Source: Burkholderiales bacterium (GTDB lineage: Bacteria; Pseudomonadota; Gammaproteobacteria; Burkholderiales; SG8-39). From it: a DNA stretch of 64,000 bases. Within the stretch, counting starts at the first letter, position 1. Each line of letters starts with the position of its first letter. The stretch covers positions 1 through 64,000 of the forward strand of contig JADGRQ010000017.1 of assembly GCA_017880775.1 (NCBI GenBank). The letters run 5' to 3'. The notes under the pieces were generated by a model. It did not search any database. It saw only the letters and a program-made list of their open reading frames with translations, and was not told where the DNA came from. The translations under genes and the position numbers were made by a program. Below, one piece after another: positions 1 to 13,032 of the stretch.

Positions 1-609
1 GTCAGGAACAAGCGCCGGCAAGCGCGCGGCGTGGGCAGACAAGCCGTAGACGATAAGCAACGCATGAAGAACGAGGAATCCCGCGAAAACGGGCAGCAAG
101 ATCAGGGTCGATTCCTTCATGCCGCGGAAGTTCAGAAACATCATCGCCAGGATCAGCGCGACTTCGGTAATCAGCTTGTAGGCTTGCGCGCCGACGGGCA
201 GCAGGCTGAAAAAAGCATCCGCCCCGCTCGCGAGCGATGTCGCGATGGTGAGCACGTAGTCGATCAGCAGCGCGGCCCCTGAGACCAGCCCGGCGCGCGG
301 ACCGATGAGCGATGTCGCAACCTTGTAGCCACCCCCGCCCGATGGAAATAATTCGATGACCTGGTTGTAGCCGATGGAAACGATGAACACGGTGAGCGCC
401 GTGGCGAGGGCGAGGTACAGACCGAGGTGAGTATTGGGCCCGAGGGCGAGGAACGCCTGTTCCGGGCCATAGCAGGAAGACGACAGGCTGTCTGCACCCA
501 AACCGACCCATGCGAGCAAAGGGATGACGGTTATCGCGCGGCGAGTCCTCTGATCGAGGGGGTCGAGCGGCGCTCCTTTCACGAGCTTGCGTATTGCTGT
601 CGGCTTCAA
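1..609 (-). CDS. APC-family amino acid permease, 3' part beyond the window
   Basis: The minus-strand frame from a TTG at 609 reads as the N-terminal third of an APC-superfamily permease. A short cytoplasmic start is followed by a first membrane helix, a YGPEQAF-type loop, a second helix with VSIGYNQVIE and a glycine-rich GGGGYKVA motif, then a helix with DYVLTIATS typical of this family. No ATG fits this frame. The TTG is preceded by CTGGAG about 8 bases upstream, so I choose it. The gene runs off the left edge, so about two thirds is missing. Substrate cannot be told; amino acids or polyamines are usual for the family. It leads the minus-strand ion/solute transport block. Confidence 0.8.
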   Translation of the reverse strand, partial: MKPTAIRKLVKGAPLDPLDQRTRRAITVIPLLAWVGLGADSLSSSCYGPEQAFLALGPNTHLGLYLALATALTVFIVSIGYNQVIELFPSGGGGYKVATSLIGPRAGLVSGAALLIDYVLTIATSLASGADAFFSLLPVGAQAYKLITEVALILAMMFLNFRGMKESTLILLPVFAGFLVLHALLIVYGLSAHAARLPALVPD

Positions 610-715
610 CAGCTGATCTCCAGTTGCATGGCGGTCATTCGGGGTGCTACCCGAAGCGGCGGGCGAAATCAGCGGGCGTCACTGATTTGCGCAGCACAGA
701 TTTGCGCGCAGCGGT

Positions 716-3700
716 TCAGGCCTGAAACGCGAACCTTGCCTCGCCGAACAGTTTGAGGCAGGCATCCACGACCGCCGGATCATAGGCGCTGTCGCGACCG
801 CGCGTGATCTCCTCGAGAGCGAGCTTGATGCCGAGGGATGCACGATACGGCCGGTGCGAAGCCATCGTTTCCACCACGTCCGCCACCGCCATGATGCGCG
901 ATTCGAGCAGGATCTGCCCGCCCTTAAGCCCCTGCGGGTAGCCCGAGCCATCGAGCCTCTCATGATGCTGGCGGACGATGTCGGCGATGGGCCAGGGAAA
1001 ATCCACGTCTTTCAGGATTTCGTACCCGGCCTGCGGATGCGTCTTGATGAGCATGAACTCGATGTCGCTGAGCTTGCCGGGCTTGGTGAGGATTTCGGCG
1101 GGAACGTGGATCTTGCCCAGATCGTGTACGGCGGCAGCAAGATGGATGCCGTGGATCTTCTCCTCCGACAGGCCCAACTCCCGCGCGATGGCCACGGCCA
1201 ACTGGCCGACGCGTCGCTGATGGCCTGCCGTGTAAGGGTCGCGCGCGTCGACGGTATCCGCCACTGCGCCGATGGTTTGCTCCAGGCTTTTCTGCAATAT
1301 CTCCGCGTGATGCTCATGCTCGTAAGCATTACGGTCGCGCTCGGCCCTGGTGCGCAAGGTCCCGATTCCAAATGCCAGGTCGTTTGCGAGCTCGGTCAGC
1401 AGCTTGACCTCCTCGCTGCCGAAGGCGCCCGGTTCCGCGGCATAGATCATGATCGCGCCGAAGACCCGTGAGTCGACGATCAGAGGAATCGCGGCGCTGG
1501 AACCGTAGCCGCGCTTAAGAGCCTCTGCGCGCCAGGGGATCATCCTCGGGTCCGTGGCGATGTGTTTCGTCACCACTGTCTCGCGCGTGCGGATGCAGGT
1601 ACCCGTAGGTCCCCGGCCCCGCTCGGTGTCCGCCCAGTTGACATTCAGGGTCGCCAGATACCCCGCTTCGAAGCCTGCCTGAGCGATCGCGGTGACCGAC
1701 TTTGCCGGGTCGTCTTCGGCGCGGCCCACCCAACACAGCCGATAGCCGGCTTCTTCCACGATGAGGTCGCATATCTGCTGCAGCAAAACCGCTTCCTCGG
1801 TCGCCCGGACCAGGGCCGCGTTGCACTTGCTGAGGACCCGCTGGGCTTGATTGACGCGCCACAGCTGCGCCTCGGCCCGATGACGGTCGATGACCGAGCC
1901 GAGAACATTGGCGGCCGCCTGGAGAAAGTTGACCTCGTCCGCGGCAAAGCTTCGGCGGTGGCGAGCATAAACTGCGAGCACGCCGAAAGGACCCTCGCTG
2001 GTCGATACGACGACGCTCGCGCCACTCACCGCTCCATGCTCGTGGAGCAGCGCTGTTCCCGCGAAGCGTTTCTCGGTTTGCAAATCCTCGACGACCACGG
2101 GCTGGTCGGAGATCAGCGTGTAGCCGGCCTGGGACTCCGTACCGAGGCCGACCGTGGCATGGCCGACGTATCCGGGCTTCCAGCCCGCGCCGGATCTCAT
2201 CAGCAGCGCGTCGCGATTCGGCAGCAACTCCAGGATCTTGCAGTAATCGACGCCGAGCGCCTGAGCCACCTGGTTCGCCGCATCGTCCAGCATCTGGGAC
2301 AATGGCGCGCCCCGCAGCGCGCGTTCCCCGAGGTCGGCCACGACCGACTGGAGGTGGGCAAGCATCCGTACCTCATTCTCCGCGTGTTTGCGGGCGGTGA
2401 TGTCATAGATCGTCGACCGGCTCATCAGGTAATTGCCGGCGGTGTCGGTGACGGCTGTGGCGCTGAGAAGCACCGGCAGGATCGTGCCATCTTTGCGAAC
2501 CATGTCGAACTCGAGGTCCCGAATCGCTCCCTCGGCTTTGAGTTTGGGAAAAAAATCTTGGACGGTCTTCACACCCTCGGGCGTAATAACATCGGAAAAT
2601 TTCAATTTTCCGATCATCTCTTCGCGCCCATATCCCAGCCACGAAAGTTCGGTGTCGTTAATGCGCACGTAGACGCCGTCCTTGTCCACGGAATGATAGC
2701 CGCAGGGAGCGTGATCATAGAGATCGCGTATCTCGTCCGCGGATCTCTGCAAGCCTTCCTCGGCCCGCTTGCGCCCGGTGATGTCTTGAACCGTGCCGAG
2801 TCCCTCGATCGCATTGCCGTCTTTGCCGAATTCGACCTTTGCCCTTTCTCGAACCCATTTCACTTCGCCGCCGACAATGATCCGGTGCTCGATGTCATAA
2901 CCTGCCCCATGTAAGGCGGCAGTCCAGGCTTTGCTGACCGCTTCTCTGTCGTCGGGATGGATCGCCTCGAGGAAGGATTCATACGTCAGACTTGTACCTT
3001 TGGACACTCCAAAGATGCGGAACACTTCATCCGACCAAGTCAGGCGGTCGTGAACCGCATCCAGATGCCAGCTCCCGATGTGCGCGATCCTCTGCGCCCG
3101 GTTCAGGTTCGCCTCGCTCTGGCGTAACGCTTCTTCAGCGCGTTTGCGCTCGGTAATGTCGCGGATGTACCCGGTGAACTGCGCAGTACCGGGCGAGGCG
3201 ATGCGCGCGATCGCGATCTCGACGGGAAATTCCTCGCCGCTCGCTCGAATCGCCGTCAGTTCGACGCGGCGACCGAGGACCGCGGCCACGCCCGTGGCGA
3301 GGTATCGCGCCAGTCCCTGCCGGTGGCGGTCGCGCAGCGAAGGCGGAATGATGACATCCGCGATCTCATGCCCAAGGACATCCTCCCGACGATGGCCGAA
3401 CATCTGCTCCGCGGCCGGGTTGAACTCCGTGACGCCACCTTGCGCGTCAATGGCGATGACGGCATCGAGCGAAGCCTGCACAGTAGCCGCGTGGCGTGCT
3501 TCGCTGCTTCGGACCTCGGCTTCGGCCTGCTTGAGCTCAGTGACGTCCTGGACGGTGCCGCGCACGAGCGTGACCTGGCCATCGGCATCGCGCTCCACTT
3601 CGCCTCGGCTGGTGACGGGCCTGATGGCCCCGTCGGCACGAACCATCTCCAGGTCGAGTTCGTAAGGTGCTCCCGTCTGGATGGCGCCTTGTATGGCTGC

Positions 3701-5530
3701 ATCGAGTCGCGCAGAGCTCTGCAACGTGTAGAACCCGAGGTGCTCTTTGTATGCGGGCGGGGGCAGCATGGGATCACGCCACGTAATTTGGGAAAGTCCG
3801 GCAGACCAGGTGATGTTGTCGGTCTTCGGATTCCACCACCAACTGCCCATGCGAGCCAGGCGCTCTGCCTCTCTCAACTCCACTTCCCGTCGGTGCAGAG
3901 CGCCTTCGGCTCGTAGATGTTCCACGTCACCGCGATTGACGATGTATCCGTTCCAGATTGCGAAACCGGCCAGCAGAGTCATCGTCGCGATGATCATCAG
4001 GCTGACCACACTCCACCCGGAGTAGAGGCCATCGGAAAATGCTCGCCACCCCAGCGCGCCGATCACGAGCGGAATGATGACGGCAGCAGGCAACAGCCGC
4101 CATGTGAGTACGCCCCCGGCCGTCGAACTCGCGAGCAATGCTGCCAGCCCTCGCTCGGTGCGGGCACAAAGCAGGCCGAGGGAAAGCACAAGCAGGGTAA
4201 CGGCAGTCTGCAGAGCGATGTGAGTGTAAGAAGTGCGAGACTCGAGAACGAAATCAAGCAGCCCGGCGATGGAAAGGATTGCCGTCAAAGCGGCGAAGTA
4301 CTGGGCTGGCCAATAGCGCTGCGATCTCCACGATATCGCCCGGTCAAGCAGGAGCACCGCCAGCCCCAACAAGAGAAAATCCAACGCCGTGATCGGAGCG
4401 ATCAGGCCGCGACGAACACTGCCGAACGCTTCCCAGGGGTTTTCATCAAGAAACAGCAACTGATCGATACCCAAGTCCCAGCCGGTCAGGTGTTCCGCCA
4501 AGCTCAGCAGGCCCACCAGTGCGGTGATGATTGCCATGATCTGAGCGCAGAGCCTTTTGCCTCTGGAGTAGGGCTCGATGTCTTTCTTTCGCAGCAACCA
4601 TAGAGACAGACCGATCAACACAAGACATGCAGCCGCATTCGGTTTGATCACTACCTGTCCCGGTATGACGCTCTTCAGGATCGCGATGTTGAACGTCCAC
4701 CCAAGGAGCCCGAGCACTCCGACGGCAACGGAAAACAGACTGGCAAAACGGACGAAGAGATTCAGGTGCCTGACGATTCCGGGGTCCGGCCGCGCGCCCA
4801 CGGGCTGTCCAGCATAAGTGCTGATGGGGCGGGCGGAGGCGACCACCCCGATCACGTTTCCGCTGGCATCCCGATAAAGCGACCCATCGTAGAGAACGGA
4901 CGTGCTGTGCCCGTCACGGTGGCGAAGCTCCAGAGCGCAGCCCCGCACGAGGCCACCGTGAAACACCTGCTCATAAGCCGCTCGCGCCTTCTCGGGCTCC
5001 CCGAAATACTCCGAGAAGTCCGTGCCGATGAGTTCTGCGCGGGAACGACCGGTGACAGTCTCGGCCGCGGCATTCACGTCATTGATCTTGCCGTCATGGC
5101 CGATGGTCACGAGCGGATCGAGACTGGCCTCGAGCAGGCTTCGATTGTAGGTACTCGCCAGCCTCGCCTGACTCCTGCTGGCCTCCGCCTCGGCCGCGCG
5201 TTGTCTTACCCAGTCCGAAAGCTGCCCGGCGGTCAAGGCAGTGACGAAGAAAGCCGCGAGCGCTGTCCAATTTCTGGGATCCGCGATCGTGAAGGTGTAG
5301 ATCGGCGGCAGGAAGAAGTAGTTGAGGCACAGCATGCCCGACACCGAGGCAACCAGGCCCGGCCAGCGTCCCCAGGCCGCTGCAATGAAGAGCACCATTA
5401 GCAGCATCGCCAGAGCCACGGTCATTTCATTGATGTGGCTGCGAAGCAGCGCGCAGATTGCCGTGACTGCGGCAATGCCCAGTATGGCGGCTAGGTAACC
5501 GAAAGCGCGGTTTTGCAGCATTCTCAGCAT
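716..5530 (-). CDS. Large membrane sensor with five PAS, two GAF and an HD-GYP domain (putative c-di-GMP phosphodiesterase)
   Basis: This 1604-residue protein starts with four membrane helices of the DUF4118 type found in KdpD (about 10-110). It continues with a PAS domain (120-235) and a second block of about seven helices (255-535). Four more PAS domains follow (555-670, 680-795, 805-920, 925-1045), then two GAF domains (1060-1215, 1230-1395) and a C-terminal HD-GYP domain (1405-1600). The HD-GYP part keeps the HDLGK metal-binding motif near 1469 and HHERLDGSGYP near 1522. HD-GYP proteins hydrolyse cyclic di-GMP, so a role as multi-input c-di-GMP phosphodiesterase is likely; the signal is unknown. 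It lies 19 bases downstream of the CorA-like gene and is probably co-transcribed with it. Confidence 0.9.
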   Translation of the reverse strand: MLRMLQNRAFGYLAAILGIAAVTAICALLRSHINEMTVALAMLLMVLFIAAAWGRWPGLVASVSGMLCLNYFFLPPIYTFTIADPRNWTALAAFFVTALTAGQLSDWVRQRAAEAEASRSQARLASTYNRSLLEASLDPLVTIGHDGKINDVNAAAETVTGRSRAELIGTDFSEYFGEPEKARAAYEQVFHGGLVRGCALELRHRDGHSTSVLYDGSLYRDASGNVIGVVASARPISTYAGQPVGARPDPGIVRHLNLFVRFASLFSVAVGVLGLLGWTFNIAILKSVIPGQVVIKPNAAACLVLIGLSLWLLRKKDIEPYSRGKRLCAQIMAIITALVGLLSLAEHLTGWDLGIDQLLFLDENPWEAFGSVRRGLIAPITALDFLLLGLAVLLLDRAISWRSQRYWPAQYFAALTAILSIAGLLDFVLESRTSYTHIALQTAVTLLVLSLGLLCARTERGLAALLASSTAGGVLTWRLLPAAVIIPLVIGALGWRAFSDGLYSGWSVVSLMIIATMTLLAGFAIWNGYIVNRGDVEHLRAEGALHRREVELREAERLARMGSWWWNPKTDNITWSAGLSQITWRDPMLPPPAYKEHLGFYTLQSSARLDAAIQGAIQTGAPYELDLEMVRADGAIRPVTSRGEVERDADGQVTLVRGTVQDVTELKQAEAEVRSSEARHAATVQASLDAVIAIDAQGGVTEFNPAAEQMFGHRREDVLGHEIADVIIPPSLRDRHRQGLARYLATGVAAVLGRRVELTAIRASGEEFPVEIAIARIASPGTAQFTGYIRDITERKRAEEALRQSEANLNRAQRIAHIGSWHLDAVHDRLTWSDEVFRIFGVSKGTSLTYESFLEAIHPDDREAVSKAWTAALHGAGYDIEHRIIVGGEVKWVRERAKVEFGKDGNAIEGLGTVQDITGRKRAEEGLQRSADEIRDLYDHAPCGYHSVDKDGVYVRINDTELSWLGYGREEMIGKLKFSDVITPEGVKTVQDFFPKLKAEGAIRDLEFDMVRKDGTILPVLLSATAVTDTAGNYLMSRSTIYDITARKHAENEVRMLAHLQSVVADLGERALRGAPLSQMLDDAANQVAQALGVDYCKILELLPNRDALLMRSGAGWKPGYVGHATVGLGTESQAGYTLISDQPVVVEDLQTEKRFAGTALLHEHGAVSGASVVVSTSEGPFGVLAVYARHRRSFAADEVNFLQAAANVLGSVIDRHRAEAQLWRVNQAQRVLSKCNAALVRATEEAVLLQQICDLIVEEAGYRLCWVGRAEDDPAKSVTAIAQAGFEAGYLATLNVNWADTERGRGPTGTCIRTRETVVTKHIATDPRMIPWRAEALKRGYGSSAAIPLIVDSRVFGAIMIYAAEPGAFGSEEVKLLTELANDLAFGIGTLRTRAERDRNAYEHEHHAEILQKSLEQTIGAVADTVDARDPYTAGHQRRVGQLAVAIARELGLSEEKIHGIHLAAAVHDLGKIHVPAEILTKPGKLSDIEFMLIKTHPQAGYEILKDVDFPWPIADIVRQHHERLDGSGYPQGLKGGQILLESRIMAVADVVETMASHRPYRASLGIKLALEEITRGRDSAYDPAVVDACLKLFGEARFAFQA

Positions 5531-5549
5531 CTCGTCGCTGGCGGCGCCG

Positions 5550-7004
5550 CTAGCGCAGCCACCCCTTCGCCATGAAGACGTAGAGTACGCCGAGCATCAA
5601 TACCAGCGTGCCGAAGGCGACCTGGCCGAGCGTGACGGCCCACGGGCTGTCGCCGAGATTCATGCCGAGCAGGCCGCCGACGATCGCCGGGATCACGGCG
5701 AGCGTGCTGACGATCGCCAGCAGCCGCATGAAGCGGGTCGTATCGTGCGCGGCGATGTCGATGTGCAGCTCGATCAGCGAAAGCACCGACTCGCGGATGC
5801 CATAGACTGCCTCATAGAGATAGTCCGCTTCCTCGGCGAGCTGGGTTGCGGATGGACGCTGATCCGGACCGAGCCCGGGCAGCTCGCGGCGGCCGTCGGC
5901 AAGCATCTGGAGCAGCCCGCGCAGCCGCCAGAGGTCGCCCTTGGCCCTCGACAGGACGCGCTTCAGGCGGAACGCCTGCTCGAAGAAGCTCGCCGGGCTC
6001 TCGCTCGCCGGAAGCTCTTCGAGCTGGCGAACCGTGCGCTCCAGCCGGTCGGCGAGTTCCTCGTCGCGGGCGAGCACCACGCGGATGATGTGAAGCGAGC
6101 AGCGCGGACCCCAGGGCAGGTCGCCTGATTCTGCAGGCGGCTGCTGCAGATCAAGCGGATGCGGGGCGAGGGACAACACGTCGTTCGCGGAGACCAGCAG
6201 CAGCACCGGGTCGCGATGCATGGCATCGCCCGCCGAGGGGAGCGAAACCGTGAGCGCGGTCCAGCGCGCACCGGTCTCGATGCGCGGATAGCTCGACTCG
6301 TGCAGCGCCGCCTCGATCATCACGTGCGGGACGCCGAACGCCGATGCGATTTCCACGAGGCGGTCCGGTGCAAGATTCGAGGCATGCAGCCAATCGCTGC
6401 TCGGTGCGGCGGCCCATTGCAGCAGATCGTCCCAGCCGCCCTTGCGCGGCGCCGGATCGCCGGGCCGCAACAGCGAGACTTGCGGCTGGCCGCGCGGGGC
6501 GGGGCGTTGTGCGGGCGCGGCGGGCGGCTGCAGGCCGTGGCCGATGCGCGGGCCGAACAGCAGGATGCGGAATAGCCGGAGGATGCGCAGCGCCGGTGTC
6601 GAACGCACCGCTTCCGACACTGCTGGAAGCAGCGACAGCAACGGCGCGACGATGATGACCGCGTCGAGCAGGCGCCAGGGATGGAGCGCGAACTTGCGCC
6701 GGTCCTTCGCCAGCGCGAAGTTGGCCGCGTATTCAAGCGCGAACAGTCCGACGATCGCCCACTCGGCGGCATCGAAACCCTGCTCGATACCGGGTGGCAA
6801 CTCGAACAGGAAGGGGGCCAGCCCGAGGCTCAGCGCGGCAAGCGCGAGGAAGCCCATCACGGCTTCGTTGAGAACGCCCGCGAGTCGACTCAGCATGTCC
6901 GCATGGTACTGATGGACAGGGCACTGGTTTGAGGTATTCGCGGTACCGAATCCCGGCTCGCAAGCGTCCGTTTTCGGCCCATGACGGTCATCCCAGCCGG
7001 TCAT
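5550..7004 (-). CDS. Voltage-sensor-like domain fused to a CorA-type divalent cation channel
   Basis: The C-terminal half is CorA-like: a soluble domain (about 195-300), a long helical stretch (305-420), TM1 (427-447), the family's GMN motif at 447-449 and TM2 (456-480). The N-terminal half is not normal for CorA. It has four predicted helices (about 48-68, 80-99, 112-128, 136-152) with E91 in the second, D114 in an HPWRLLD motif in the third, and arginines 140, 143 and 146 at every third position in the fourth, as in S1-S4 voltage sensors. No S5-S6 pore follows; a proline-rich linker (154-190) leads into CorA. Mg2+ or another divalent ion is the expected substrate. The ATG at 6896 (residue 37) is an alternative start; neither has a good ribosome-binding site. 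Confidence 0.85.
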   Translation of the reverse strand: MTGWDDRHGPKTDACEPGFGTANTSNQCPVHQYHADMLSRLAGVLNEAVMGFLALAALSLGLAPFLFELPPGIEQGFDAAEWAIVGLFALEYAANFALAKDRRKFALHPWRLLDAVIIVAPLLSLLPAVSEAVRSTPALRILRLFRILLFGPRIGHGLQPPAAPAQRPAPRGQPQVSLLRPGDPAPRKGGWDDLLQWAAAPSSDWLHASNLAPDRLVEIASAFGVPHVMIEAALHESSYPRIETGARWTALTVSLPSAGDAMHRDPVLLLVSANDVLSLAPHPLDLQQPPAESGDLPWGPRCSLHIIRVVLARDEELADRLERTVRQLEELPASESPASFFEQAFRLKRVLSRAKGDLWRLRGLLQMLADGRRELPGLGPDQRPSATQLAEEADYLYEAVYGIRESVLSLIELHIDIAAHDTTRFMRLLAIVSTLAVIPAIVGGLLGMNLGDSPWAVTLGQVAFGTLVLMLGVLYVFMAKGWLR

Positions 7005-7132
7005 TGACCGGGGTATTGGTCCGAGCGCCTGTCCGCGTTAGTGGCGTAATCCTCTTGATTTCGATGCCATATTCTGCAGCGAGCCCACGTCAGCGTGCCG
7101 AAACTCAACGTCTCGCTGGATGCGGCCAAATA

Positions 7133-7183
7133 ACTCTTTACGCCGTTCTTACCGCGGCGAATTGACTCTTTACGCCGTTCTTA
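7133..7183. promoter_or_regulatory. Two 19-bp direct repeats, 32-bp period, candidate response-regulator site
   Basis: The sequence ACTCTTTACGCCGTTCTTA occurs perfectly at 7133-7151 and again at 7165-7183. The 32-base period is close to three helical turns, which would put both copies on one DNA face. They lie between the minus-strand CorA-like gene and the plus-strand genes leading to kdpDE. OmpR-family regulators, including KdpE, bind direct repeats containing TTTAC-like cores in E. coli, so KdpE is a reasonable but unproven candidate. The flanks up to 7233 hold no gene that I can support. Confidence 0.5.
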
Positions 7184-7233
7184 TGGCGCGGCCCCTATAT
7201 TGGAGTTGGATGGTAAGTGGGAAGGAGTTGCAC

Positions 7234-7383
7234 ATGCGTATCGCCGAGAAGTTCGCCGCTGTGTTCCAGCGCCTTTGGGGGCCGGCGTTGATTTTCGTGA
7301 TTGTGGTGACGTGCGGTTATTTCACCCGGGCGGTCGATCTCCCGCCGGAGGTGCAGGAGGCCCTCTACGTCCACAGACCGTAG
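7234..7383 (+). CDS. Small single-helix membrane protein, hypothetical
   Basis: A 49-codon frame begins at an ATG preceded by GGAAGGAG at a good distance, which is the main reason to believe it. The peptide has a basic amphipathic start, one hydrophobic helix (about residues 13-30, WGPALIFVIVVTCGYF) and a short acidic tail. I do not recognise a family. It lies directly downstream of the 19-bp repeats and 11 bases upstream of the next frame. Since small membrane peptides often accompany Kdp or transporter genes, an accessory role is possible, but it does not resemble KdpF clearly. Confidence 0.5.
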   Translation: MRIAEKFAAVFQRLWGPALIFVIVVTCGYFTRAVDLPPEVQEALYVHRP

Positions 7384-8131: not shown

Positions 8132-10858
8132 ATGAGCGCTCCGCGCCCTGACCCCGACGCATTGCTCGCGCGCGTCAAGCGCGAGGAATCCCTGGAGGGG
8201 CGCGGCAGGCTCAGGATCTTCTTCGGCGCCTGTGCCGGCGTCGGAAAAACCTACGCGATGCTCACTGCCGCGCGCGCAGAAGCGGCGCGCGGCACCGAGG
8301 TACTAGTCGGCGTGGTCGAGACCCACGGGCGCGACGACACCGCGGCGCTTGCCGAAGGCCTGGAGCGCCTGCCGCTACGGCAAATCGAGCGCCAGGGCGC
8401 GATGCTCACCGAATTCGACCTCGACGCCGCGCTCGCGCGCAAGCCGGGGCTGATCCTGGTCGACGAACTGGCGCACACCAACGCGCCGGACTCGCGCCAC
8501 CCGAAGCGCTGGCAGGACGTGCAAGAACTGCTTGCCGGCGGCATCAATGTCTATACCACCCTCAACGTCCAGCACCTCGAAAGCCTGAACGACGTGGTCG
8601 GGCAGGTCACCGGCGTGCGCGTCTGGGAGACGCTGCCCGACAAGGTGTTCGACCAGGCCGACGATGTCGAGCTGGTGGACCTTCCGCCCGAAGACCTGCT
8701 CGAGCGGCTCGGCGAGGGCAAGGTCTACCTTGCCGAGCAGGCGATACGCGCCGCCGACAATTTTTTCCGCAAGGGCAACCTGATCGCGCTGCGCGAGCTT
8801 GCGCTGCGGCGCACCGCGGATCGCGTCGACGCGCAGATGCGCGACTACCGCGAAGAAAAAGGCATCAGCGCGGCATGGCCCGTCGCCGAACGGCTGCTCG
8901 TCGCCGTCGGCCCCGGCGAAGAGGGCGAGCATCTGGTGCGCGCCACGCGGCGCATGGCGGCCAGCATGGGCACGGTTTGGACCGCGCTCTACGTCGAGAC
9001 CCCCGCCCTGCTGCGCCTGCCCGAAGCCGAGCGCGACCGGATCCTGCGCACGCTGCGGCTGGCCGAAGAGCTGGGCGGCAAGAGCGTGGTGGTGGGCGGC
9101 GGCGACGTGGCCGGCGAGGTGCTCGGCTTCGCGCACGCGCAGAACGTCTCGCGCATCGTGATCGGTCGTCCGAAACGGCGCGGCTGGCGCGGATGGATGG
9201 TCGGTTCGACCGCCGACCGCATCACCTCCGGCGCCGACGACATCGATGTCGCTCTGGTCAGCACCGGGGGAAAACACGCCATCCTTGCCGCGGGAATGAT
9301 CGTGCGCTCGCGCGACGCGCTCGGCATCGAGAGCCCGGGAAAGCGCCGCTGGCCGCGCTATCTCGCCGGCGCAGCGATGCCGGCTGCCATCACCATCGTC
9401 GGCGCGGCGATGCACGGGCGGTTCGAACTGTCCAATATCGTCATGCTGTACCTGCTCGGAGTCGTCATCGTGGCGATCCGGCTCGGCCGGGGACCGTCGA
9501 TCCTCGCTGTGATGCTTTCGGTGGCCGCGTTCGATTTCTTTTTCGTTCCCCCTTACCTCACCTTCGCGGTGTCCGACACCGAGTACCTGATCACGTTTGC
9601 GGTGATGCTCGTCGTCGGACTGGTCATCAGCACGCTCGCCGGGCAAGTGCGGCTGCAGGCGAGAATTGCCGGCTACCGCGAGCAACGCGCCTCCGCGCTC
9701 TACGACATGAGCAGGGAAATGGCGGCGACGGAGAAGCTGGTGGAAATCGTCCGCATCGCCGTGCGGCACGTGTCAGAGGTGTTTGCGAGCCAGGCCGCGG
9801 TGCTGCTGCCGGATGGGAACGGCCGCGTGCGGCACCCGCGCGGTGAAAGCGTCGCGGGCTCGCTGCACGGCGCCGACCTCGGGATTGCGCAATGGGTGTA
9901 CGACCACACGCAGCCCGCAGGACTGGGCACCGACACGCTGGCCGGGTCGGACACGCATTTCGTGCCGCTCGCGACGCCGACCGGGCCGATCGGCGTGCTT
10001 GCGCTGCTGCCCGCGAATTCGCGCCGCATTTTCGTTCCCGAGCAACGCCGGCTGCTTGACACCTTCGCCGCGCTCATCGCGCTCGCGATCGCGCGCGCGC
10101 AGCTCGCCGACGAGGCGCGCGCCGCGCAACTCGCCGCGGAAACCGAGAGCCTGCGCAACGCACTGCTCGCCGCCATCTCGCATGAACTGCGCACTCCGCT
10201 CGCCACCATTGTCGGCGCCTCCTCGAGCCTCGCGGAGCAGTCCGAGGCGATGGGGGCAGCCGCCCGACGCGAGCTCGCGCAGAGCATCGCGGAGGAAGCG
10301 CGGCGCATGGGCGAGGTGGTCGCGAAGGTTCTCGACCTCGCGCGCCTGCAGGCCGGGGCCACCCGCGTCAATGCCGACTGGCATCCCGTGGAGGAAGTGG
10401 TCGGCAGCGCGCTGCAGCGGCTTGCCGGCCGGCTCTCGAAACACAAGGTGACCACGCGCCTGCCAAAGGAAGCGGTGCTGGTGCGCTTCGACGCGGTGCT
10501 GATCGAGCAGGTGCTCGTCAACCTGCTCGAGAACGCGGCGAAGTACACGCCGCCGGGCAGCGGCATCGACATTGCGGTCGAAGCACGGCGCGACGAGATC
10601 GAGTTCACCGTGGTCGACGACGGCCCCGGCCTGAAGCCCGGGCAGGAAAAAAAGGTGTTCGACAAGTTCCACCGCGGCGTGCCGGAATCCTCGCCCGGGG
10701 GCGCGGGGCTGGGACTGGCGATCTGCAAGGCGATCGTCGAGGCGCACGGCGGGCGGATCTGGGCCGAAAACATCCCCGCCGGCGGCGTGGTGTTCCGTTT
10801 CACCGTTCCGCAGGGTGACGAACCGCCGCCCGCGCTGGACGCCGAGGAGCGGGTATGA
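8132..10858 (+). CDS. kdpD: KdpD-type osmosensitive K+ sensor histidine kinase
   Basis: The 908-residue protein has the full KdpD architecture. The N-terminal KdpD domain carries a Walker A motif GACAGVGKT at 32-40 and a LILVDELAHTNAP Walker B region. A Usp-like domain covers about 245-370, four DUF4118 helices about 400-500, a GAF domain about 530-650, HisKA with phospho-acceptor His684 in AISHELRTPL, and an HATPase domain (NLLENAAKYTP, DDGPGL, GLGLAICKAIVEAHGG). KdpD normally phosphorylates KdpE when K+ is scarce, to induce kdpFABC. No kdpFABC is present within the window. Its stop overlaps the kdpE start (ATGA). Confidence 0.95.
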   Translation: MSAPRPDPDALLARVKREESLEGRGRLRIFFGACAGVGKTYAMLTAARAEAARGTEVLVGVVETHGRDDTAALAEGLERLPLRQIERQGAMLTEFDLDAALARKPGLILVDELAHTNAPDSRHPKRWQDVQELLAGGINVYTTLNVQHLESLNDVVGQVTGVRVWETLPDKVFDQADDVELVDLPPEDLLERLGEGKVYLAEQAIRAADNFFRKGNLIALRELALRRTADRVDAQMRDYREEKGISAAWPVAERLLVAVGPGEEGEHLVRATRRMAASMGTVWTALYVETPALLRLPEAERDRILRTLRLAEELGGKSVVVGGGDVAGEVLGFAHAQNVSRIVIGRPKRRGWRGWMVGSTADRITSGADDIDVALVSTGGKHAILAAGMIVRSRDALGIESPGKRRWPRYLAGAAMPAAITIVGAAMHGRFELSNIVMLYLLGVVIVAIRLGRGPSILAVMLSVAAFDFFFVPPYLTFAVSDTEYLITFAVMLVVGLVISTLAGQVRLQARIAGYREQRASALYDMSREMAATEKLVEIVRIAVRHVSEVFASQAAVLLPDGNGRVRHPRGESVAGSLHGADLGIAQWVYDHTQPAGLGTDTLAGSDTHFVPLATPTGPIGVLALLPANSRRIFVPEQRRLLDTFAALIALAIARAQLADEARAAQLAAETESLRNALLAAISHELRTPLATIVGASSSLAEQSEAMGAAARRELAQSIAEEARRMGEVVAKVLDLARLQAGATRVNADWHPVEEVVGSALQRLAGRLSKHKVTTRLPKEAVLVRFDAVLIEQVLVNLLENAAKYTPPGSGIDIAVEARRDEIEFTVVDDGPGLKPGQEKKVFDKFHRGVPESSPGGAGLGLAICKAIVEAHGGRIWAENIPAGGVVFRFTVPQGDEPPPALDAEERV

Positions 10859-11553
10859 CCAGTGAACGTCCGGTGGTGCTGGTGATCGAGGACGAGCCGC
10901 AGATCCGCAAATTCCTTCGCGCGTCGCTCGACGCGCAGGGCTTCTCTGTCGAGCAGGCCGAATCCGGCGAACAGGGACTGGTCATGGCGGCAAACCGCCG
11001 GCCGGAAGCGATCGTTCTCGACCTCGGCCTGCCGGACCTGGATGGCGTCGAAGTCATCCGGCGCCTGCGCGAATGGAGCCGCGTGCCGATCATCGTTCTG
11101 TCGGCGCGTGCCCAGGAGGACGACAAGATCCGCGCGCTCGATGCGGGGGCCGACGACTACGTGGTCAAGCCCTTCGCGGTCGGCGAACTGCTCGCCCGTC
11201 TGCGCGTTGCGCTGCGCCATGCCGCGACTGCGGACGGGACCGGCGCGCCCGCGTCGATCGAGGCCGGCGAGCTGAAGATCGATCTCGGAGCGCGCCGCAT
11301 CAGCGTCTCGGGAAAGGAAGTTCACCTGACGCCGACCGAGTATCGCCTGCTCGCGGAGCTGGCCAAGCACGCAGGCAAGGTGCTGACGCAGCGCTACCTG
11401 CTGAAGGAGGTGTGGGGCCCCGGCTACGTCGAGCGACCCCACTACCTGCGCATCTACATGGCCAACCTCCGTCGAAAGCTCGAAGCCGACCCGGCGCAGC
11501 CGCGGCGGCTGTTGACGGAAACCGGCGTAGGCTACAGGTTCAACCTCGAGTAG
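10855..11553 (+). CDS. kdpE: KdpE-type OmpR-family response regulator
   Basis: The 232-residue protein has a receiver domain with the phospho-acceptor Asp56 in IVLDLGLPDLDG, the conserved Thr/Ser position in IIVLSARAQEDD and the lysine in DDYVVKPF. A winged-helix DNA-binding domain follows (about 130-230, with LTPTEYRLLAELAKHAGKV and GVGYRF at the end). It overlaps kdpD by four bases, so translation is coupled. The next gene, a sodium:solute symporter, starts 12 bases downstream and may belong to the same transcript. Targets may include the symporter operon or the repeats at 7133-7183; this is inference from position only. Confidence 0.95.
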   Translation: MTSERPVVLVIEDEPQIRKFLRASLDAQGFSVEQAESGEQGLVMAANRRPEAIVLDLGLPDLDGVEVIRRLREWSRVPIIVLSARAQEDDKIRALDAGADDYVVKPFAVGELLARLRVALRHAATADGTGAPASIEAGELKIDLGARRISVSGKEVHLTPTEYRLLAELAKHAGKVLTQRYLLKEVWGPGYVERPHYLRIYMANLRRKLEADPAQPRRLLTETGVGYRFNLE

Positions 11554-11565
11554 GCTGCGAAGGCG

Positions 11566-13032
11566 ATGCTGCTGGCACTGGTCATCTTCTATCTGCTGGT
11601 CACCATCGCCATCGGCCTGTGGGCCGCCAAGCGCGTCAAGAACACCGCCGACTTCGCGATTGCCGGGCGGCACCTGCCGCTCGTCATGATCGTCACGACG
11701 ACCTTCGCTACCTGGTTCGGGTCCGAGACCGTGTTGGGCATTCCGGCGAAGTTCGTCAGCGGCGGCCTGAACAGCGTCGTGGAAGACCCGTTCGGCGCCG
11801 GCACCTGCCTGATCATTGTGGGCCTGTTCTTCGCCGGCAAACTCTACAAGATGACGCTGCTGACGATCAGCGATTACTACCGGGAACGCTACGGCCGCAG
11901 CGTGGAAGTGGTGTGTTCGCTGATCATCATCTTGAGCTACCTCGGCTGGGTGTCCGCACAGATCACTGCACTGGGCCTGGTGTTCAACGTGCTGTCGACC
12001 GGCGCGATCAGCGTGCCGATGGGCATGATCATCGGCACGGTCTCGATCCTCGCGTACACGCTGTTCGGCGGCATGTGGTCGGTGGCCGTCACCGACTTCA
12101 TCCAGATGATCGTCCTGGTGAGCGGCCTGTTCATCCTGGCGGTGTTCGCGGGCCACCAGGCCGGCGGTGCCGACAAGGTCATCGCCCTCGCCACCAGCAG
12201 GGAAATGTTCACGTTTCTGCCCGAGCCGAAGTTTCACGACATCGTGTTCTTCTTCGCGGCGGCCATCACGATGATGCTGGGCTCGATTCCGCAGCAGGAT
12301 GTGTTCCAGCGCGTCATGTCGGCCAGGGACATCAACGCCGCCACCCGGGGCCCGGTGATCGGCGGCATCTGCTACATCCTGTTCGCGTTCGTGCCGATGT
12401 TTCTGGTGACGAGCGCGCTGATCATCATGCCCGAGCAGACCGCCGCGCTGCTCAGGGACGACCCGCAGAAGGTGCTGCCCACGCTGGTGCTCGAAAGGAT
12501 GCCGTTCATCATGCAGGTGCTGTTCTTCGGCGCGCTGCTCTCGGCCATCAAGTCCACCGCGTCGGCAACGCTGCTGGCCCCATCGGTGACCTTCGTAGAG
12601 AACATCTGGCGCCAGTTCCGCCCGCACCAGGGCGACCGGAAGGAACTGCTGACCATGCGCATCACCGTGCTGGTGTTCAGCGCGTGTGTGTGCGCCTACG
12701 CCATTGCCTCGCAAGGCACGCCGATCTACGAGATGGTGTCGGGGTCCTATCAGGTGACAGTGGTCGGCGCGTTCGTGCCGCTTGCTGCGGGCCTGTACTG
12801 GAAGCGCGCGACCACGCAGGGGGCGATTTTCGCGATCGTGCTCGGCATCCTGTCGTGGTTGCTGTTCCAGGCCACGCCGGCCGGCAAATCATTTCCGCCG
12901 CAACTGGCCGGGGTGCTGATGGCACTCGCGGGCATGTGCGTCGGCTCGCTCGGCCCGCAGGCAGTGAAAAACCGCCACGGTTCGCACCACCATGTGGTGG
13001 GTACGCCGGCGGATCGGGCCGTGCCCGGCTGA
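11566..13032 (+). CDS. Sodium:solute symporter (SSF/PutP family)
   Basis: The 488-residue protein is a multi-helix membrane carrier of the sodium:solute symporter family. Signs include the N-terminal GRHLPLVMIVTTTFATWFGSETVLG region matching the TM2 sodium-site region, the YRERYGRSVE loop, TLFGGMWSVAVTDFIQM and the MLGSIPQQDVFQR motif. It has the expected length and about 13 helices, and a histidine-rich C-terminal end (GSHHHVVG). Substrate is not predictable; proline, acetate, pantothenate and choline carriers share this fold. Placement 12 bases after kdpE suggests osmotic or ionic control, for example of a compatible solute, but that is inference. Confidence 0.9.
   Translation: MLLALVIFYLLVTIAIGLWAAKRVKNTADFAIAGRHLPLVMIVTTTFATWFGSETVLGIPAKFVSGGLNSVVEDPFGAGTCLIIVGLFFAGKLYKMTLLTISDYYRERYGRSVEVVCSLIIILSYLGWVSAQITALGLVFNVLSTGAISVPMGMIIGTVSILAYTLFGGMWSVAVTDFIQMIVLVSGLFILAVFAGHQAGGADKVIALATSREMFTFLPEPKFHDIVFFFAAAITMMLGSIPQQDVFQRVMSARDINAATRGPVIGGICYILFAFVPMFLVTSALIIMPEQTAALLRDDPQKVLPTLVLERMPFIMQVLFFGALLSAIKSTASATLLAPSVTFVENIWRQFRPHQGDRKELLTMRITVLVFSACVCAYAIASQGTPIYEMVSGSYQVTVVGAFVPLAAGLYWKRATTQGAIFAIVLGILSWLLFQATPAGKSFPPQLAGVLMALAGMCVGSLGPQAVKNRHGSHHHVVGTPADRAVPG

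Follow-up and report, generated by a model that had tools for sequence, protein, structure and literature searches.

Does this bacterial genome encode a CorA channel whose opening follows the membrane potential? The question is raised by one gene on the reverse strand of the window, i.e. the whole stretch of 64,000 nucleotides of Burkholderiales DNA analysed here. The main control on CorA channels is generally ascribed to Mg2+ inside the cell. To our knowledge voltage sensors occur on VGIC pores and on very few other effectors. The first-pass annotation read the gene as a voltage sensor followed by CorA, with no S5-S6 pore, and this architecture is now backed by profile searches, by conservation in six genomes and by selection on both parts. 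The features are collected in Table 1. Residues are numbered in the 448-aa frame, whose likely start at 6896 is residue 37 of the open reading frame.

Table 1. Features of the VSD-CorA gene (VSD, voltage-sensor-like domain); positions are those of the window.
Feature	Positions	Strand	Basis or remark
VSD-CorA fusion gene	5550..6896	-	encodes 448 aa if read from 6896, the likely start; frame open to 7004
36 in-frame codons 5' of the likely start	6897..7004	-	probably untranslated
VSD, residues 1-117	6546..6896	-	Pfam Ion_trans, PDB sensor matches, conserved charges
VSD helices S1 (~13-33) and S2 (~43-63; F52, E55)			limits estimated
VSD helices S3 (~75-93; D78) and S4 (~99-117; R104, R107, R110, R117)			limits estimated
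Linker, residues 118-138, proline-rich, poorly conserved	6483..6545	-	identity and dN/dS
CorA module (residues 139-448), an alpha/beta domain and a stalk of long helices, then TM1, GMN and TM2	5553..6482	-	Pfam, TmCorA profile and fold
GMN selectivity motif, residues 411-413	5658..5666	-	LGDSPW follows; usual loop PEL missing

In the window sequence the ORF (5550..7004, reverse strand) covers 484 aa. Its first 36 residues are probably untranslated, because a methionine is aligned at the likely start in all six intact copies, because the open frames of L003 and L030 hold 451 codons against 448 aligned residues, which places a stop just upstream of the start, and because the upstream residues of the window, L001 and L028 are dissimilar when compared by eye. 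The residues singled out earlier are all present in the 484-aa ORF: E91, D114 (in HPWRLLD), R140, R143 and R146 correspond to E55, D78, R104, R107 and R110 from the likely start. The earlier caution that the N-terminal part might be mistranslated upstream DNA probably holds for these 36 residues and is contradicted by the homologues for the sensor.

The sensor part is recognized in profile searches. Pfam Ion_trans matches residues 36-112 (E 1.5e-7, above the curated cut-off). The match ends at profile position 103 of 241, i.e. in S4, and the chain then continues with CorA instead of an S5-S6 pore. Ion_trans matches the VSDs of all six fusions, and in the four full-length proteins scanned both Ion_trans and CorA lie above the Pfam cut-offs. 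In NCBIfam the only matches, CorA and a voltage-gated K+ channel of a methanogen, stay below the cut-offs. The genome of the window has no other Ion_trans protein. With a profile of the six VSDs, 113 distinct PDB sequences are matched at E <= 1e-3; each of the best 60 of the 113 is either a voltage-gated channel for Ca, Na or K or a channel from bacteria that bears the name "ion transport protein". The top matches are the four-sensor Ca and Na channels (T-type, E 1.4e-15), whose E-values add up four repeats; a repeat taken singly scores 10-26 bits in the alignments listed, with a best independent E of 6.8e-5. Chains with a single sensor give 6.3e-6 for a Nav1.7-NavAb chimera, 6.8e-6 for an ion transport protein of bacteria and 8.8e-6 for Kv4.2. 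FALE in S2 and the aspartate in S3 are aligned in the T-type matches.

The charges expected of a sensor are kept. E55 in S2, D78 in S3, R104 and R107 in S4, together with F52 and R117, are invariant in the six fusions, and R110 in S4 and the outer S2 acid E45 are found in five of them. F52 sits three residues before E55. E45, F52, E55 and D78 fit the charge-transfer centre of Shaker, formed by E283, F290, E293 and D316. The S4 arginines stand at i, i+3 and i+6; as there are three of them, and only two in L002, the gating charge may be small. Read from the sequence, the S2-S3 loop is basic (KDRRKFALHPWR) and the S1-S2 loop acidic. These loop charges fit the usual sensor topology, in which both joined ends would lie in the cytoplasm. 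In L028, the most distant copy, the VSD is 52% identical to that of the window versus 35% for the CorA part.

Structure models, for which the window copy and three relatives were used, place the helices where they are expected, at low confidence. The full-chain AF2 model has a mean pLDDT of 61.4 and a pTM of 0.54; blocks within 141-380 reach 64-88, and S1, most of S4 and the CorA TM helices stay below 50. It contains the elements of the cytoplasmic alpha/beta domain and the long CorA stalk helix at 139-383 and helices at 389-413 and 423-443, mostly of low confidence. The best 50 Foldseek rows for this model are all CorA (best E 1.9e-11), with TM-scores of 0.42-0.49 by query length and a whole-chain rmsd of 19-23 A. 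The VSD modelled alone (pLDDT 67.2) has helices at 2-23, 35-62, 73-88 and 91-114, the last with a break. Foldseek finds 11 matches for it, 10 of them voltage-gated channels, none significant (best E 1.4). VIA-align reaches at most Z 6.5 (KCNQ1, 3.1 A over 90 residues), and most of its top matches are voltage-gated channels; a subunit of complex I, which is unrelated, also scores Z 5.2, and the tool warns that this range may reflect a common helical arrangement. The models support the VSD reading weakly, and it is the sequence evidence that carries it.

The C-terminal part is a full CorA. Pfam CorA covers residues 168-441 (E 1.3e-22; 80.9 bits against a cut-off of 27), and GMN is invariant in the six fusions, between the two C-terminal TM helices. 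With a profile of the six CorA parts the E-value is 3e-17 for TmCorA, 3e-16 for MjCorA, 4e-5 for CmaX and 0.006 for the soluble domain of ZntB. The loop that follows GMN is altered: it reads SPW or APW in the fusions, and PEL is found in none of the six versus 21 of 22 unfused CorAs.

In TmCorA the metal of the M1 site is bound through D89 and D253. At the D89 column five fusions carry A and the sixth K; at the D253 column, in the same order of copies, stand Q, R, P, R, R and L. None of the six has an aspartate at either column. Both aspartates are present in 21 of 22 unfused CorAs of related genomes and in 18 of 19 in a smaller alignment. The smaller set consists of L005 and 18 of 20 search loci, L007 (the window itself) and L019 (sensor only) having been dropped. 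The unfused L051 has G and N at the two columns, and L023, which aligns poorly, has N at column 89 in the 19-CorA alignment and D in the 22-CorA alignment. The host's own ordinary CorA (L005) keeps both aspartates, and the fusion is not the only CorA of its host. PMC3629940 reads the M1 site of TmCorA as mainly stabilising, and M1 mutants still crystallise closed, as cited in PMC8865849. Hence, the loss of the pair alone does not prove that Mg2+ control is lost.

In maximum-likelihood trees, whether with 19 or with 22 unfused CorAs, the six fusions form one clade (support 100/100) that a long branch separates from the rest. Among unfused proteins, L049 (E 4.5e-22) and L050 (E 1.3e-18) reach the best scores with the CorA profile of the fusions. 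The tree leaves both unjoined to the fusions, a placement that is unsure according to the program's long-branch warning. We infer, with the tree neutral on this point, that the fusion clade derives from a CorA like these two and that the M1 aspartates were lost afterwards. L049 and L050 themselves keep both aspartates and have an extended loop after GMN (SPWNMPEL and DSPWAMPEL).

On this basis we suggest, as a reading with an even chance of being right, that the gene encodes a CorA-type divalent-cation channel in which the site for Mg2+ feedback has been lost and a voltage sensor acquired, so that its gating would follow voltage. The protein would have six membrane helices: the S1-S4 sensor, a short flexible linker (about 118-138) and the CorA-type channel. 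We tentatively picture five voltage sensors around a single pentameric divalent pore, in which feedback by Mg2+ would be exchanged for a sensor of potential; we put this somewhat below an even chance. We infer the pentamer with its five sensors, the coupling and the ion. A change of membrane potential would move S4, and this motion would pass through the linker to the cytoplasmic funnel or gate and favour the open or the closed pore. Entry of Mg2+, or of another divalent ion, would then track membrane potential instead of, or more than, internal Mg2+, and the cytoplasmic Mg2+ feedback would be weakened or gone. The kept gating charges and counter-charges and the replaced regulatory aspartates fit the opening or assembly dependent on potential that the first-pass annotation had predicted.

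The linker is the weak point of this proposal. The segment 118-150 is 36-64% identical among the copies, and in nine of ten pairs no other separate segment has a dN/dS as high; the tenth pair is undefined. Between the window and L001, dN/dS is 0.170 for the VSD, 0.328 for the linker, 0.186 for the soluble CorA part and 0.187 for the CorA TM part. In the seven pairs with both values defined the VSD gives 0.10-0.36 and the soluble CorA part 0.07-0.35, and the overall range of the VSD and CorA parts, among pairs of five copies where defined, is 0.05-0.36. In eight of nine pairs with both defined, the VSD exceeds the CorA TM part. These values exclude L028, and dS is saturated in some segments of three of the four L002 pairs. 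The VSD is under purifying selection comparable to that on the soluble CorA part and weaker than that on the pore helices; the linker is looser. The loose linker and the higher dN/dS of the VSD relative to the CorA TM part argue against tight coupling of the kind provided by an S4-S5 linker.

In another explanation the VSD fold is an anchor, an assembly or targeting module, or a surface for lipids or proteins, and the CorA part is gated by ions or ligands with no direct role for voltage. Its main support is the loose, proline-rich linker together with the S4 of L002, which keeps two of three arginines, and the low confidence of the structure models agrees with it as well. However, an anchor does not need the exact intramembrane residues E55, D78, R104 and R107, yet they are invariant down to 39% identity, and the usual regulatory Asp pair for Mg2+ is replaced in the fusions. 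We find this explanation possible but unlikely.

The same domain order was sought in other genomes, and six intact full-length loci are now known including the window copy, the other five being 39-81% identical to it. They are from an uncultured Sterolibacterium (L001, 81%), an uncultured Nitrosomonadales (L002, 71%) and a Betaproteobacteria MAG (L003, 65%), and, from profile searches of sampled genomes, L030 (65%) and L028 (39%), the last from a different family within the same class. A scan with short peptide patterns over one genome per species of 84,980 species gave at least three full-length relatives (L001, L002 and L003), and L004 was matched in its sensor part only among the matches listed. 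Of 399 genomes of the order, 2 matched at E <= 1e-15: the host of the window copy and G338, with a protein that reads like L003. Of 369 genomes of the class, 2 matched at E <= 1e-10, again the host and, besides it, L028. The phylum sample of 398 genomes gave 2 as well, the host and G974, in which a sensor-pore channel was matched. At most four candidates per genome were scored for these three counts. Among families, the match rate is 1 of 2 genomes for that of L028 (L028 itself), 3 of 28 for that of G338 (two intact copies and one internally deleted) and 2 of 150 for that of L002 (L002 itself and one copy disrupted by a frame change and stops). These genome samples share members and cannot be treated as independent. 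Searching 274 genomes of the class with the VSD alone gave five matches. Two are the window copy and L028; the other three are frames of 283-309 aa, which are too short to be fusions.

Other candidates were rejected: L008 and L013, at first taken for further fusions, read as ordinary CorAs, and in L004, L029 and L040 the protein that holds the sensor has a pore region of its own and lacks CorA. In L019, L041 and L042 the match is to the sensor only. One scan of viral contigs with two short peptide patterns found no relative, and among plasmids one record matched, a distant ordinary CorA at 21%, with no fusion.

The VSD-CorA gene is thus rare and patchy. Two further copies are broken, L031 and L035/L036. 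In L031 (1498-1968, reverse strand) the S2-S3 part of the sensor runs straight into the C-terminal CorA stalk, so that either S4 was lost through an internal deletion that kept the frame or the assembly is at fault. In L035/L036 (G1229) the sensor part is still open, and the CorA part is interrupted by two stops and a change of frame. Rarity and the two broken copies count against the voltage-gated reading, and they would be expected if the fusion were a dispensable, decaying gene, non-functional or marginal, with a pore that is closed or conducts poorly. Six copies are nevertheless intact, both parts have the low dN/dS given above and GMN never varies, which makes decay improbable.

Could the sensor itself carry protons? 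A VSD without S5-S6 is the arrangement of Hv1, and the invariant E11 (6/6), just before S1 as placed, at its inner edge, could suit a proton path coupling H+ flow to divalent transport. But Hv1 requires an aspartate within S1, and the only acids within S1 of the fusion (13-33, limits estimated) are at 32-33, at its outer end and unconserved. A precedent for such coupling is ZntB, a CorA relative that transports Zn2+ with stimulation by a proton gradient, according to PMC5670123; the same paper gives GMN for the CorA filter, as found in the fusions, and Val in place of Met for that of ZntB. We consider proton conduction very improbable. Membership among ZntB-like proteins was rejected, as the profile is closer to TmCorA and MjCorA and the filter is GMN.

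An artefact, with two genes joined by a sequencing or assembly error or with upstream DNA mistranslated, would account for the 36 codons that are probably untranslated but is refuted by the homologues and hardly credible, since one frame with the same domain order and no stops inside recurs in six intact loci of different genomes, among them three named public MAGs.

Judged by eye, the neighbourhood gives the gene no constant partner. In the window a co-oriented PAS/GAF/HD-GYP gene with a KdpD-like DUF4118 N-terminus (719-5530, reverse strand) starts 19 bases past the fusion stop. In L001 a GAF-HD-GYP gene (406-2646, reverse strand), 67% identical to it over 408 aa, also lies beside the fusion but is divergent. 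Common surroundings are seen by eye for L003, L030 and L031, the last being the deleted copy; the three belong to a single genus. By the same inspection no neighbours common with L002 or L028 were seen, and a conserved operon was rejected as the neighbours differ between loci, save for the HD-GYP gene of the window and L001 and the surroundings of the L003, L030 and L031 copies. On the other strand of the window, kdpD and a kdpE-like response regulator (8132-11553, forward) adjoin the fusion, with kdpFABC not directly adjacent, and an SSF symporter follows this pair at 11566-13032. Upstream of the fusion gene a 19-base direct repeat was seen by eye (7133-7151 and 7165-7183, starts 32 bases apart). 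A scan of 5400-7300 found no promoter or terminator. PADLOC gave no match, and an anti-phage system was rejected.

Among the open-access papers searched we found no description of a VSD-CorA protein. Both domains are known and their order is apparently undescribed, with a function that is predicted from sequence. If the voltage-gated reading is true, a voltage sensor can be grafted onto a pentameric pore unrelated to its own, and the bacterial membrane potential is linked directly to divalent-ion uptake. The fusion would then be a compact natural system for the study of S4 coupling without an S4-S5 linker.

In its channel part the fusion resembles T. maritima CorA, a 2-TM-GxN MIT channel for Mg2+/Co2+, in the full CorA Pfam domain, GMN and the two C-terminal TM helices. 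It differs from TmCorA in the N-terminal four-helix sensor and in the replacement of D89/D253 and the loss of the loop PEL, both in six of six copies. ZntB and CmaX belong to the same CorA superfamily and are matched weakly by the fusion profile (E 0.006 for the ZntB soluble domain, 4e-5 for CmaX), unlike the closer TmCorA (3e-17) and MjCorA (3e-16). With Cav, Nav and Kv channels the fusion shares S1-S4 with F and E in S2, D in S3 and an arginine at every third residue of S4. Unlike them it has no S5-S6, and its effector is a CorA module, which should be pentameric and not tetrameric. Parallels in design are VSP, the voltage-sensing phosphatase (PMC6298786), and the voltage-gated Na+/H+ exchanger SLC9C1, described in PMC10620092 as the only known transporter regulated by voltage-sensing domains; both, like the fusion, join a VSD to an effector that is not a VGIC pore. 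However, the effector of VSP is a phosphatase and that of SLC9C1 an animal sperm exchanger, and in the fusion it is a bacterial CorA, for which voltage control is predicted.
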